DNA of 26,372 bases from a virus: positions 1,555 through 27,926 of the IMG/VR virus record IMGVR_UViG_3300030104_005351; one strand, written 5' to 3'. Positions within the stretch are counted from its first letter, which is position 1; each line of letters starts with the position of its first letter. The position numbers and the translations under genes are program-made. This document shows positions 1,255 to 20,838 of this stretch, in pieces. The notes beneath the pieces are model-generated. The model ran no database searches, was not told the DNA's origin, and saw nothing but the letters and a program-made list of their open reading frames with translations.

Positions 1255-1287
1255 GTGGGCTTACTTTATTTTACGAAGGAGAACAAA

Positions 1288-1926
1288 ATGAATAAAGCGG
1301 ATCGTTATGTCATTCCCGAAGGTGCGGAAAGACCGAAGAAGAAATACTTAAAAAAATACTTACCTGAAGATAAACCCTTAAACAGGCGTGAAGAGCTCTT
1401 TGTTAAAGAACTGGTTGCTAAAGACGGCCAGATAACTTTGCGCGATGCAGCCATTAATGCGGGATACCCGCCAAAGTCTGCTCACGTGCGAGCTCACGAA
1501 CTTACTAACCCAGCGATTAAACCAAACGTTGTGAAGGCTATTAAACAGTTTAGAGCTGAGCTGGATCAAAAGTATGGCGTCGAATATAAACGGCACCTTA
1601 GAGATCTACAGGTGATCCGCGATGCTGCCTTAGATAGTGGCGCCTTTAGTGCTGCCGTGCAAGCTGAATACCGTCGAGGTCAAGCGCAAGGGGACATTTA
1701 CGTTAATAAGTCTGAAATAAGGCATGGAACTATTGATAGCATGTCAAAAGAAGAAGTGCTAAATGCTATTAAAGAGCTAAAGCAAACATATGACCCAGTC
1801 ACTGTTGACATTACACCCGTCGAAGAAAGCGACAAAAACCGCGATAAAGCCAGAAAGCGCGTTCTGGGTTCAGTTTCGCAAAAAAGTAACGATACTGAGG
1901 AAGTCGTGGAAGATGGAAAGAATTGA
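1288..1926 (+). CDS. terminase small subunit
   Basis: A 212-residue protein. Residues about 31-90 follow the terminase small-subunit pattern (Terminase_2-type helix-turn-helix): LNRREELFVKEL, then an ITLRDAAINAGYPPKSAH recognition-helix region and ELTNPAIKPNVVKAI. The family recognises the packaging start on concatemeric phage DNA and loads the large subunit. The frame extends upstream to 1195, but 1288 has AAGGAG (1276-1281) at proper spacing and begins the typical basic leader. The C-terminal third is charged and low in complexity, and its last 137 bases also encode the start of the nuclease at 1790. Unusually, the large subunit lies 4.6 kb downstream. Confidence 0.85.
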   Translation: MNKADRYVIPEGAERPKKKYLKKYLPEDKPLNRREELFVKELVAKDGQITLRDAAINAGYPPKSAHVRAHELTNPAIKPNVVKAIKQFRAELDQKYGVEYKRHLRDLQVIRDAALDSGAFSAAVQAEYRRGQAQGDIYVNKSEIRHGTIDSMSKEEVLNAIKELKQTYDPVTVDITPVEESDKNRDKARKRVLGSVSQKSNDTEEVVEDGKN

Positions 1927-5679: not shown

Positions 5680-5876
5680 TGGGCACCAAATACGCAAATT
5701 GTTATGATGAAACGGGCGGCGATATCTCAATCGCCGTTCCCAGCGATATGACGCTGGATCAATTTAAAGAAAGCTATCCAGAATGTCAGTTTAGATTTTG
5801 GCAGGAATTCAGCGATCGCGAGCTAGCCGAATGGCGTTTGTCTCAAATAGATGAATACGATCAAGATTTGTACTAG
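5679..5876 (+). CDS. hypothetical acidic protein (65 aa)
   Basis: The start at 5679 makes the TAATG overlap with the previous stop and has GGGGAG at 5667-5672; the frame is open further upstream but without a better site. The 65-residue product is acidic and aromatic (YPECQFRFWQEFSDRELAEWRLSQIDEYDQDLY) with no membrane segment. It is the last gene before the 684-base non-coding region and is followed by a terminator 46 bases later. Not recognised. Confidence 0.65.
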   Translation: MGTKYANCYDETGGDISIAVPSDMTLDQFKESYPECQFRFWQEFSDRELAEWRLSQIDEYDQDLY

Positions 5877-5922
5877 CCGCCCCAGTTCGTGCATCCAGCG
5901 CGTTTACAAGCTTTTAAAACGT

Positions 5923-5953
5923 ATCCCCGCTAGCAATGGCGGGGATTTTTTTT
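5923..5953 (+). terminator. intrinsic terminator after the small-gene region
   Basis: ATCCCCGC (5923-5930) pairs perfectly with GCGGGGAT (5939-5946) around TAGCAATG, followed by a run of T. A second ATCCCC lies just after the T-run (5954-5959) and could instead pair with GGGGAT (5941-5946), giving two mutually exclusive hairpins. Confidence 0.9.
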
Positions 5954-6114
5954 ATCCCCGTTAAAAATCGGTAAAACAGCGCCCCGCGCGCCGTCCCCAG
6001 TTATCCTAAAACTTATGAGCTGGCAGCGCGAACGGCGGCAGCTGCCGCGCCATGTTTGTTTTAAATCCCGTGTTTGTTTGTCCGTTTGTCATCTTTTGAC
6101 ATACAGCCAGCGCC

Positions 6115-6254
6115 CCAGATCCGCGCGCCGCGTGCCGTGATTGCTGGGGATTGGCGCCAGATCCAGCGCCCCAGATCCGCCAGCTGCTGGCCGTCTTATT
6201 GGTGGAAAATTTGCCCAGATCCGTGACCAGCTGGCCAAGATCCGCGCGCCGCGT
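6115..6254 (+). repeat. CCAGATCC iteron-like direct repeats
   Basis: CCAGATCC occurs at 6115-6122, 6157-6164, 6171-6178 and 6215-6222, with a CCAAGATCC variant at 6235-6243. Two longer exact 17-base direct repeats overlap these: CAGCGCCCCAGATCCGC at 6108-6124 and 6164-6180, and AGATCCGCGCGCCGCGT at 6117-6133 and 6238-6254. Short CAGCTG and CAGCTGG inverted motifs lie between them (6181-6190, 6228-6236). Same-orientation copies look like protein-binding iterons (origin or terminase recognition). Confidence 0.75.
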
Positions 6255-6417
6255 TTAGGATCCCCATATCCAATTGAGGCTAAAAAATGCAGCAAAAACA
6301 ACGATTTAGAGCCCAAATTTTTTTAACCCCACCCCCCCACCACGCGCGCATAAAGTGCATGTTCGTCACAAACAATATAAAAATAAAATTATACGAATAA
6401 TTTCAGTCGGTTATGGA

Positions 6418-6435
6418 ATGTTTCACGTGAAACAT
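6418..6435. other. parS: perfect parS-type ParB binding site
   Basis: The 18-base perfect palindrome ATGTTTCACGTGAAACAT contains TGTTTCACGTGAAACA, which is the consensus chromosomal parS bound by ParB in bacteria, including Caulobacter. A full 16-base match is not expected by chance in 26 kb. It lies in AT-rich non-coding DNA 126 bases before the large terminase start. Two half-site copies of GTTTCA follow at 6460-6465 and 6546-6551. No parA or parB gene is seen in the window, so host ParB is the obvious reader, or a phage ParB encoded elsewhere. Confidence 0.85.
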
Positions 6436-6523
6436 CGTAAAACGTAAAAAGGTTTGCATGTTTCAGTTTTGCTGGTAAAAGTTTGGGTATAAAAATTTTT
6501 AAAAATTTAAAACATATCATCTT

Positions 6524-6536
6524 ATAGAATCTTATA
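6524..6536 (+). promoter_or_regulatory. ATAGAATCTTATA motif upstream of the large terminase gene
   Basis: This 13-mer ends 24 bases before the terminase start codon and matches 12 of 13 bases of ATAGAATGTTATA at 16526-16538, which lies 15 bases before the first head-morphogenesis gene. Both sit where an upstream gene group ends and a new one starts, so a late-promoter element is possible. Two copies only. Confidence 0.35.
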
Positions 6537-6560
6537 CGGTGGTACGTTTCAGGAGCCGCG

Positions 6561-8021
6561 ATGCCCAATCTAAATGCCGATAACGCCAGCGAAAGATTAC
6601 TGAAGCTTCAATATCGGTTGGCGCAAATCGAAAAAAAGGAGCGGTCATACGAAGATTTTCTAACTTTTGTGAAACTTATGTGGCCAGAATTTATTGCAGG
6701 AAACCATCATAAGATAATCGCAGATAAGTTGCAGAGGATCGCATCTGGCGAATTAAAAAGATTAATCGTTAATATGCCTCCGCGACATACGAAATCAGAG
6801 TTTGCCTCCTTTTTGTTTCCTGCTTGGATGATGGGACGCAATCCCAACATGAAGATTATTCAGGCAACGCACACAACCGAGCTCGCGGTAGGTTTTGGTA
6901 GAAAAGTTAAGAACCTTCTGGACAGAGACGACTACAAGGAACTTTTTGACACACGATTAGCGGCAGACTCAAAAGCTTCTGGACGTTTCGACACGGATCG
7001 CGGCGGCATGTACTATGCTGTTGGTGTGGGCTCGAACTTAGCTGGTCGTGGTGGTGATCTGGTGATTATTGATGACCCGCACTCGGAGCAGACATTAATG
7101 TCGAACAATGGTTTTGACGACGCGTGGGACTGGTACACTGGCGGACCTCGACAGCGTTTGCAGCCCGGCGGCGCCATTGTTGTGGTTATGACGCGCTGGC
7201 ATGAAAAGGATCTGACGGGGCAGCTTATTCGATCGCAAGCTAGGGACGACAAAGCGGATCAATGGGAGGTTGTTGAGCTCCCTGCCATAATGCCGAGTGG
7301 CAAATCTTGTTGGCCAGAGTATTGGTCTTTAGATGATCTTGAGCGTGTGAAGGCTTCTATTCCGCCCAGCAAATGGAACGCGCAGTACCAGCAGGATCCC
7401 ACGGGCGACGATAACAGTATCTTGCGCCGTGAGTGGTGGAACGTGTGGGAAGAGGATGATGTTCCTGAGCTTGAGTATGTGATACAGAGTTATGATACGG
7501 CTTTTTCGAAGAAGGAGACTGCGGACTATTCTGCCATAACGACTTGGGGTGTATTTTATCCAAAGCGTGACGGGGCGCCATCTTTGATACTTTTGGATGC
7601 GAAGAAGGGTCGGTGGGATTTTCCTGAGCTCAAGCGTGAGGCGTGGGATCAGTTTCAGTTTTGGGATCCAGAGACCGTGATCATTGAGGCGAAGGCGACG
7701 GGTACTCCGTTGACGCACGAGCTGCGGAACATGGGCATACCTGTTGTGAATTTTACGCCGAGTCGAGGGAATGACAAGGTGAGTCGGGCACATAGTATAG
7801 CGCCGTTGTTTGAGGCGGGGATGGTGTGGGCGCCTGATGAGCAGTGGGCACATGAGTTAATTGAGGAGTGTGCGGCATTTCCGAATGGTGAGTATGACGA
7901 TTATGTTGATAGCACGACGCAGGCGTTGATGCGTTATCGGCAGGGTAATTTTGTACAACTGCCCACGGACGATTGGGAAGAGGGCAGTGATTACGTGGAG
8001 CCAAGGGTTTATTATGGGTAA
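6561..8021 (+). CDS. terL: terminase large subunit (packaging ATPase/nuclease)
   Basis: A 486-residue protein that drives DNA into the prohead and cuts concatemers. The ATPase half has Walker A in MPPRHTKSE (72-80), Walker B LVIIDD (167-172) and a coupling motif MTRWHEKDL (210-218). The RNase-H-like nuclease half has D312 (SYDTAFS), E376 (IIEAKATG) and an acidic DDYVD (446-450) as the expected metal ligands. The PPRHTKS form of Walker A is typical of this terminase group. Length is normal for the family. AGGAG (6551-6555) precedes the ATG. It begins the structural operon and directly follows the parS/iteron region; the small subunit is 4.6 kb upstream. Confidence 0.95.
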   Translation: MPNLNADNASERLLKLQYRLAQIEKKERSYEDFLTFVKLMWPEFIAGNHHKIIADKLQRIASGELKRLIVNMPPRHTKSEFASFLFPAWMMGRNPNMKIIQATHTTELAVGFGRKVKNLLDRDDYKELFDTRLAADSKASGRFDTDRGGMYYAVGVGSNLAGRGGDLVIIDDPHSEQTLMSNNGFDDAWDWYTGGPRQRLQPGGAIVVVMTRWHEKDLTGQLIRSQARDDKADQWEVVELPAIMPSGKSCWPEYWSLDDLERVKASIPPSKWNAQYQQDPTGDDNSILRREWWNVWEEDDVPELEYVIQSYDTAFSKKETADYSAITTWGVFYPKRDGAPSLILLDAKKGRWDFPELKREAWDQFQFWDPETVIIEAKATGTPLTHELRNMGIPVVNFTPSRGNDKVSRAHSIAPLFEAGMVWAPDEQWAHELIEECAAFPNGEYDDYVDSTTQALMRYRQGNFVQLPTDDWEEGSDYVEPRVYYG

Positions 8022-9628: not shown

Positions 9629-10782
9629 TGATGCCAGAGCTGGAAGACTTTTATCGGTTAGTAATGCGTGACGCATTAAAAGAAGAATTGAACTATGGTC
9701 TTCGAAAAGGTTTACCGCAAGACAAAATTGATCTTAACATCAAAGTTTTAAAAAGAAAGTTGGAAGAGGAAATGGGCATACCCTTAAGTAAAGCCAATGG
9801 CGGAGAGATTTTTACAACGGGTGTTGGGTCGTTATATTCAGATCCCAATTCGCCGTTTGTACAAGAAAGAGAATTTTCTAGACAAATGGGTCGAGAGATG
9901 GCGCAACCCTTGGGTAGATTAGGCACGCGTGGTGTTGGGTCTATGGGTCAACGACGGCGTTCTCGCGAAGAGATTGACGAAGAAGATCGTGATTTTAACC
10001 GTCGTATGCGGAATCGTTTAGCAGAGGAACAAGAGAGAGAATTTATACGCGGTCTTGAGGGTAGAGATTTCACCAGAGAAATGCAGGAAGAGCAGTCATT
10101 AAGGGAACGAGAAAGACAGATGCTTGAAGATCAGGAGAAAGAACTTCTTGACAGTTTACCTGACGCAGAGAAAGCCCCCAATAAATCTGATAATATGAAA
10201 AGAGCAGAGGAATTAAATAGAATATTGCAGGACACTGAGGGTAAGCCTCCATATTCTGACGAACCCGGCACACCGGGTTATCAAAGAATGCAAGACGAAA
10301 TGGAGATTATGAACGAAATCATGCGATTGCTTGAGGAGGATGTGGGCGATCTTTTTGGAGATATTGGAGGCGAAGAAGAAAGAAGAAAGTACGAGAAGCA
10401 AAGAAGGGAGTTTCTTGGTGAGCGTAAGCCTGAATTCAAGCTTCAGCCTGAATTCCCGCCTAACAAAGAAGAGGGAATGTTTTCGTTTGATACATTAACT
10501 ATAGACGGTGAACCTGTTGCGGTCATAAACTTTAAAGATGGAGAAATGTTAACTTTCTATGAAATTGGCGAACTGTTTAAACAATATAAAACCGCGCCTG
10601 AAACAAACATCGGACCGACAACCATGCGCATGATTAGGGAGTTTATGGAACAAAACAACCCAACATACCCTGAGTTTATAAGTCACTTTTTCCTATCACG
10701 GCGCCTCGCGGACGGCGGTGAGGTAGAGACGATGGGTGGTATAGGCACTTTGAATGAAACAGCGAAGAATATGTTTCGCTAG
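9628..10782 (+). CDS. highly charged coiled-coil protein, probable virion or assembly protein
   Basis: A 384-residue protein starting on the last base of the previous stop. It is mostly charged helix (RSREEIDEEDRDFNRRM, LREREREMLED-like stretches, EEERRKYEKQRREF), with a more folded region near 285-320 (FDTLTIDGEPVAVINFKDG). Two copies of a short motif occur: ANGGEIFTTGVGSLY near residue 55 and ADGGEVETMGGIGTL near the C-terminus; the previous protein ends in a related GIGSL. This suggests a shared binding or processing motif in virion proteins. Function unproven; scaffold-like or internal virion protein is the best guess. Confidence 0.7.
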   Translation: MMPELEDFYRLVMRDALKEELNYGLRKGLPQDKIDLNIKVLKRKLEEEMGIPLSKANGGEIFTTGVGSLYSDPNSPFVQEREFSRQMGREMAQPLGRLGTRGVGSMGQRRRSREEIDEEDRDFNRRMRNRLAEEQEREFIRGLEGRDFTREMQEEQSLRERERQMLEDQEKELLDSLPDAEKAPNKSDNMKRAEELNRILQDTEGKPPYSDEPGTPGYQRMQDEMEIMNEIMRLLEEDVGDLFGDIGGEEERRKYEKQRREFLGERKPEFKLQPEFPPNKEEGMFSFDTLTIDGEPVAVINFKDGEMLTFYEIGELFKQYKTAPETNIGPTTMRMIREFMEQNNPTYPEFISHFFLSRRLADGGEVETMGGIGTLNETAKNMFR

Positions 10783-20288: not shown

Positions 20289-20330
20289 TGGTATAGTCCA
20301 GATATCCCTGACAGTGACATGAGGTCACTG
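20289..20330 (+). promoter_or_regulatory. candidate extended -10 promoter and leader hairpin for the decoration operon
   Basis: TGGTATAGT (20289-20297) is an extended -10 with TATAGT; TGATATAGT at 20200-20208, before the terminator, is a near copy. No strong -35 is seen. A transcript starting near 20304 would open with CAGTGAC-ATGAG-GTCACTG (20312-20330), a 7-pair hairpin 15 bases before the AGGAG at 20345-20349. The hairpin may stabilise the message or act as an operator. Confidence 0.45.
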
Positions 20331-20355
20331 ACAATAGCCGAGACAGGAGACTTAC

Positions 20356-20838
20356 ATGGCTAACACGACGTTTAACGGTCCCGTTCGTTCAGAAAACGGT
20401 TTTAAATCTATAATCAAGAACTCCACTACTGGAGGTCTTACTAATGAAATGACTCTATCCACCTACACTGCAACGATTACCGTTGCGGCAAGTGGTACAG
20501 ATCACAAAGAAGCTTCCATAGGAATACCCTCTAACTTTATTCCAATGGGCGTCGCAATAACTGTGACAGGTGCAGCGGCTAATGCTGTAAACCTTGTTGA
20601 TATTGGCACAGATGCAGATACAGACGGTTTTGTTGACGGCATATCTGTGGCTATTAATTCTACAGGTTTCAAAGGATTTTTTCCATGTAATGGTGCATTA
20701 GGAATGTCAGGCGGTGCAACAACCGCTGCTACAGAGACTGCGGACGAAGTTGAAGTAGTGATTTCTGGCACTGCGGGTGCTGGTGGTGTGTTATCTTTGA
20801 AGTTCTTTGGTATTTCATCTGATTCACCAACCACTTAA
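20356..20838 (+). CDS. probable capsid decoration/structural protein (160 aa)
   Basis: A 160-residue protein with AGGAG 6 bases before its ATG. It begins MANTTFNGPVRSENGFKSI, an opening I remember from marine phage (including cyanophage) virion proteins, and continues as a Thr/Ala/Gly-rich beta protein (YTATITVAASGTDHKEASIGIPSNFIPMGVAITVTG). A single Cys lies in FFPCNGALG. It has its own candidate promoter after the capsid terminator, suggesting independent, strong expression. A head decoration role is likely, but a different structural role cannot be excluded. Confidence 0.7.
   Translation: MANTTFNGPVRSENGFKSIIKNSTTGGLTNEMTLSTYTATITVAASGTDHKEASIGIPSNFIPMGVAITVTGAAANAVNLVDIGTDADTDGFVDGISVAINSTGFKGFFPCNGALGMSGGATTAATETADEVEVVISGTAGAGGVLSLKFFGISSDSPTT

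Follow-up and report, generated by a model that had tools for sequence, protein, structure and literature searches.

The window, the whole 26,372-nucleotide stretch analysed here, corresponds to bases 1555-27926 of the 27,926-bp virus record IMGVR_UViG_3300030104_005351 (G000). On its plus strand it encodes the terminase small subunit terS (1285..1926; PHROG 51, E 2e-10) and large subunit terL (6561..8021, 486 aa; PHROG 38, E 4e-107), and the ORF map places a non-coding gap of about 680 bp (5877..6560) before terL, bordered on its left by a small ORF that ends at 5876. A first-pass annotation of this DNA had described a perfect parS site, extended to an 18-base palindrome, in non-coding sequence shortly before terL, and this description is confirmed. 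The 16-bp core TGTTTCACGTGAAACA is present without mismatch at 6419-6434, the perfect palindrome with its 9-base arms spans 6418..6435 (no strand assigned), and 126 bp of non-coding DNA separate it from the ATG of terL, the gene on its 3' side, at 6561. The core belongs to the 16-bp palindrome type that defines a chromosome-type parS, and it is unique in the window at up to three mismatches, a tolerance at which shuffled versions average 0.16 matches. Its identification rests on the sequence match and on its retention in relatives.

Several other elements share the gap, all of them given on the plus strand. Three copies of a GC-rich iterated repeat (CCCAGATCCG...) lie 5' of parS at 6107..6259; similar arrays occur in relatives, and the region is a candidate packaging site. 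About 45 bp 5' of parS is the element ATGTTCGTCACAAACA (6359..6374), common to most relatives examined and strongly conserved, the variation of which is partly codon-like (MF[V/L]TN...); it may encode a leader peptide or act as a DNA element. Between parS and terL, the motif TCTTATA-N3-TCTTATA (6520..6536) is kept in the six nearest relatives aligned and is a candidate late-promoter element. A scan of the window region for sigma-70 promoters returned no consensus pair, and none that is conserved and overlaps parS. The first-pass annotation had also listed GTTTCA half-sites at 6460 and 6546; the hexamers are there, but their role as half-sites is rejected because GTTTCA/TGAAAC occurs 28 times in the window on both strands, two of these being the arms of parS itself, and the matches are best ascribed to chance. 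Elsewhere in the window, a Mu-gpT-DE RNA (Rfam RF03012, 65 bits) was found at 20306-20358, 3' of the capsid gene.

To the left of the window, G000 carries two more perfect parS copies, one at 785-800 and the other at 941-956; they are spaced 156 bp apart and lie together in the gap that separates ORF 596-784 from ORF 1003-1692. This pair (locus L004) brackets a perfect inverted repeat with 11-bp arms, ACGTATCGAAC aaa GTTCGATACGT, at approximately 880-904, and the relatives L260 and L261 also have a parS pair, with a spacing of 147 bp. All three copies are kept in G001, a relative with 98% terL identity, and the number of sites per genome here ranges from one to three. G001 is a 59,661-bp contig with ends that overlap by about 100 bp, which makes it a probable complete genome. 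It encodes terminase, portal, capsid, primase, helicases, DNA polymerase A, a beta-clamp-like protein, a GroES-like protein, an N6/N4 DNA methylase, small HTH proteins (HTH_23 and HTH_17/AlpA-like) and many proteins of no assigned family, and its counterpart of the terL-upstream gap is among its largest non-coding gaps.

Conservation of the site was assessed in terL relatives drawn from IMG/VR, GTDB contigs and named phages, a site being defined as TGTTYCACGTGRAACA with no more than one mismatch. The 180 terL-bearing loci contained 79 parS sites, distributed over 64 of them. The first 84 loci (0.97 Mb) accounted for 52 sites in 40 loci, and none of 25 shuffled palindromes with matching composition had a match there. 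For most sites the distance to the terL match downstream is 14-306 bp, and 56 of the 79 are within 420 bp on its 5' side. When the count was restricted to 98 loci with terL identity of at least 70% and at least 300 bp of upstream sequence available, parS was present at any position in 52, and in the 400 bp that precede the terL match in 39. On the terL tree the trait falls in one clade (96 rows, local support 99), the sister groups of which are mostly without the site, and the upstream parS state changes only 7 times over the whole tree. Within the clade, some members have the site relocated to +1.5, +4.6 or +5.7 to +7.7 kb, and in others parS occurs as pairs, at -5.8 and -7.4 kb; a low-GC subclade has lost it. 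The psg01, HTVC027P, HTVC023P and DSL-LC04 phages are cultured or named relatives with terL identities of 54-63%; of eight cultured relatives from the wider family scanned over their full length, only two had the site, Pelagibacter phage HTVC027P and Roseobacter phage CRP-810, with one mismatch each. In a single subclade (L131 and L133), the terL-upstream region also contains at least three TTTGTGATCACAAA-type palindromes near parS.

The site is kept while its flanks diverge. For 21 sites with flanks less than 65% alike, the 16 positions of parS hold 1.3-2.0 bits, or near 2 bits per position, and the flanks about 0.2 bits. In an alignment of close relatives with a mean column identity of 73%, parS is unchanged except for one substitution in L129. 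Mismatches to the canonical 16-mer are distributed as 37 with none, 4 with one, 14 with two, 0 with three and 8 with four, a distribution that sets the class of sites clearly apart from chance matches. What variation there is consists mainly of a symmetric swap, T/C at position 5 together with A/G at position 12, which matches natural chromosomal parS; TGTTCCACGTGAAACA is also present in the metagenome-assembled genome (MAG) G025. Natural empty sites exist as well, in that relatives without parS retain promoter-like DNA on both sides of its position. The site is thus selected relative to the surrounding DNA, as is expected of a chromosome-type parS, and the refuting condition named in the first-pass annotation, absence or random mutation in close relatives that keep the surrounding region, is not borne out.

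The MAGs with related phage contigs (from GTDB) belong to Rhodobacteraceae, Maricaulis and Rhodospirillales, but also to Verrucomicrobia, and host assignment from these noisy bins was rejected as inconsistent. The Rhodobacteraceae, Maricaulis and Rhodospirillales MAGs encode ParB and contain the same 16-mer, although with bins of this kind they may not be the host of this phage. The 16-mer and parB are on one contig in the Maricaulis (G023) and Rhodospirillales (G024) MAGs, with parA located in between in the latter. GANTC is the target of the methyltransferase CcrM in Alphaproteobacteria. Its observed/expected ratio is 0.40 in the window and 0.32 in G001, a depletion of about 2.5-3-fold, compared with 0.28 in Roseobacter phage CRP-901 and 0.77-0.87 in the Pelagibacter/DSL-LC04 phages; this composition points, only indirectly, to a CcrM-bearing alphaproteobacterial host. 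CCNGG and GGNCC are likewise depleted in the window and G001.

A search for parA and parB, a check that the first-pass annotation had suggested, found neither in G000 or G001. The ParB_N (PF02195) and TIGR00180 profiles and the ParA-type AAA_31 profile (PF13614) had no match in G000 or in the 59.7-kb G001, and a phage-encoded ParABS system is ruled out for these two sequences. Tyrosine integrase (PF00589) was absent from both the G000 fragment and G001 with its overlapping ends, and no persistence or plasmid genes were found. The only ParB-like matches are weak: one within a 928-aa ORF of G002 falls below the cut-off, and one within a 1056-aa ORF of G016 narrowly exceeds that of Pfam. The earlier suggestion of a host-type parS on a phage that lacks ParA and ParB is supported by these searches together with the selection on the site.

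parS is also found well beyond this terL family. At least 120 IMG/VR stretches contain the exact 16-mer, and a control palindrome of the same composition with a CACGTG core is found in 5. Approximately 26 of the 120 parS stretches listed belong to this family or a near sister and the others to other phages; in the same 120 stretches, 72 of 146 sites are not covered by any predicted ORF, though coding density is 90%. The neighbours of parS in other phages include replication initiation, tail and terminase genes and are not confined to packaging genes. The exact site recurs in actinobacteriophages, one Lactobacillus phage and many uncultured phages. phi29 (EU771092) has four exact copies of TGTTTCACGTGGAACA, at 10445, 15903, 17243 and 18760, all of this one asymmetric variant and in the same orientation. 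At up to one mismatch, the Arthrobacter phages Emotion and VroomVroom have six and five sites, respectively; among other named phages, Kampe and Voltaire have two each and Bacchae three. ParB_N was not detected in phi29 or in any of these five phages. We found no earlier report of a phage parS besides that of phi29, the Arthrobacter phages included, in a literature coverage that is incomplete.

The likeliest reading of the site in the window is a parS that acts only in cis and recruits host ParB. The exact sequence, non-coding position, conservation against the flanks, relocation and lack of phage ParA/ParB together argue that a host-type parS is real, and judged from these sequence features host ParB very probably binds it. 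A perfect non-coding parS in a large marine phage group with no segregation genes suggests that host ParB is used during infection. In ParABS systems, ParB-CTP clamps load at parS and slide over the adjacent kilobases. By analogy, host ParB with CTP would load at the phage parS and then slide outward over neighbouring kilobases, and phage genomes would become cargo of the host segregation machinery (ParA, possibly SMC). When lysis is slow or deferred, an infecting genome could in this way be held with the host nucleoid and partitioned along with it, much as phi29 enters the spore by way of Spo0J; the payoff would be good placement, and a phage genome that reaches a daughter cell if division precedes lysis. 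We give this use of parS in partition or positioning, taken as a whole, a probability of roughly 0.5. The site would then be a location-tolerant cis tag that may shift among non-coding gaps and vary in number, and its relocation, its variable distance from terL and its inconsistent order relative to promoter-like elements favour such a tag over a strict operator. Against partition or positioning, about two thirds of the sites lie right before terL, a placement that fits regulation equally well, one subclade has dispensed with the site, no genes for persistence accompany it, and few of the cultured phages of the wider family have it.

Since sites strongly favour the terL gap, late-gene control stays in contention, yet that gap is among the largest non-coding spaces. 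ParB bound at parS might repress or time a late promoter of terL, with packaging and lysis deferred until ParB is titrated by enough phage genomes or the host cell moves on in its cycle. This reading, which we consider possible though doubtful, draws on the clustering of sites upstream of terL and on one subclade in which parS is directly 3' of a TATAAT-like element before the gene. ParB represses promoters next to parS3 and parS4 in P. aeruginosa, according to PMC5521831, and PMC9437464 describes a CtrA-based lytic deferment proposed for alphaproteobacterial phages. Late-gene control by ParB is weakened by the varying order of parS and the promoter-like element among subclades, by clade members with the site several kb away and the second pair of G000 and G001 far from terL, by the promoter-like DNA that persists in relatives without parS, and by the negative sigma-70 scan of the window region. 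A more specific and rather improbable version is a lysis timer, in which clamps at the terL-upstream parS would hold the packaging and lysis genes until copy number or the segregation cycle releases them; if true, a host centromere protein would time the late programme in a widespread virulent marine clade. CtrA sites were also looked for beside terL in G001 and rejected, its five TTAA-N7-TTAA matches being elsewhere.

ParB loads SMC at parS in many bacteria. Multiplied parS copies could serve to titrate ParB or SMC away from the chromosome, or SMC loaded there could fold phage concatemers before packaging, and replication of genomes with one to three sites each might bring their number near that of cellular ParB. 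We hold this to be unlikely, however, since the sites per genome are few and no pressure towards many copies is seen in the clade. Less probable still is an operator for a phage-encoded regulator that shares the parS palindrome by coincidence: the small HTH proteins and many uncharacterised products of G001 could supply such a regulator, but the exact consensus, with its T/C symmetric tolerance, recurs in unrelated phages (phi29, actinobacteriophages, the Lactobacillus phage), and the control palindrome is rare in IMG/VR. Chance or neutral hitchhiking, for which nothing was found in favour, is refuted by the control palindromes and by the conservation of the site against its flanks.

Recruitment of host ParB through a cis parS, with partition or positioning as its likeliest use, can be compared with several known systems. 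Phage-plasmids with their own ParABS (P1-like phages and extrachromosomal mycobacterial prophages) also have a centromere site on the phage genome; they encode their own partition proteins, however, whereas parA and parB are lacking from G000 and G001. Like the CtrA-using alphaproteobacterial phages, the marine phages would be virulent phages with binding sites for a host cell-cycle protein, but here the protein would be ParB, which acts as a sliding clamp in segregation and not as a transcription factor. The chromosomal parS of ParABS, exemplified by G023 and G024, two alphaproteobacterial MAGs in which it is next to parB, has the same 16-mer and the same T/C variation, and differs in that the marine site is on a phage genome away from any parAB.

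The closest parallel is phi29, where host Spo0J (ParB) traps the phage genome in the spore, as related in PMC9437464, which cites Meijer et al. 2005. The first-pass annotation had considered use of host ParB through a cis site alone to be unusual; virulent phi29 is a published case, and parS is present in other phages too. Both phi29 and the marine phages are virulent, with parS in cis and no ParB of their own, so that the expected reader is host ParB, and G000 and G001 resemble phi29 in having neither integrase nor phage ParA/ParB. The lineages are unrelated, the hosts of the marine phages are probably proteobacterial and need not sporulate, and the phi29 logic is therefore not directly transferable. 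In addition, the phi29 site that has been examined is in gene 15, whereas the marine sites are mostly in the non-coding gap before terL, and no Spo0A-type switch is known for the marine phages. We found no earlier report, in our incomplete coverage of the literature, of a parS that is mobile, associated with terL and spread through a whole clade of marine phages. The action of ParB on phage DNA becomes testable, and parS can serve as a sequence tag for ParB use across viromes. The principle of a virulent phage with a cis parS and host ParB is already known from phi29, and the marine clade, together with the recurrence of exact parS in other phages, suggests that lytic phages commonly exploit the host centromere, beyond the case of phi29 and spores.
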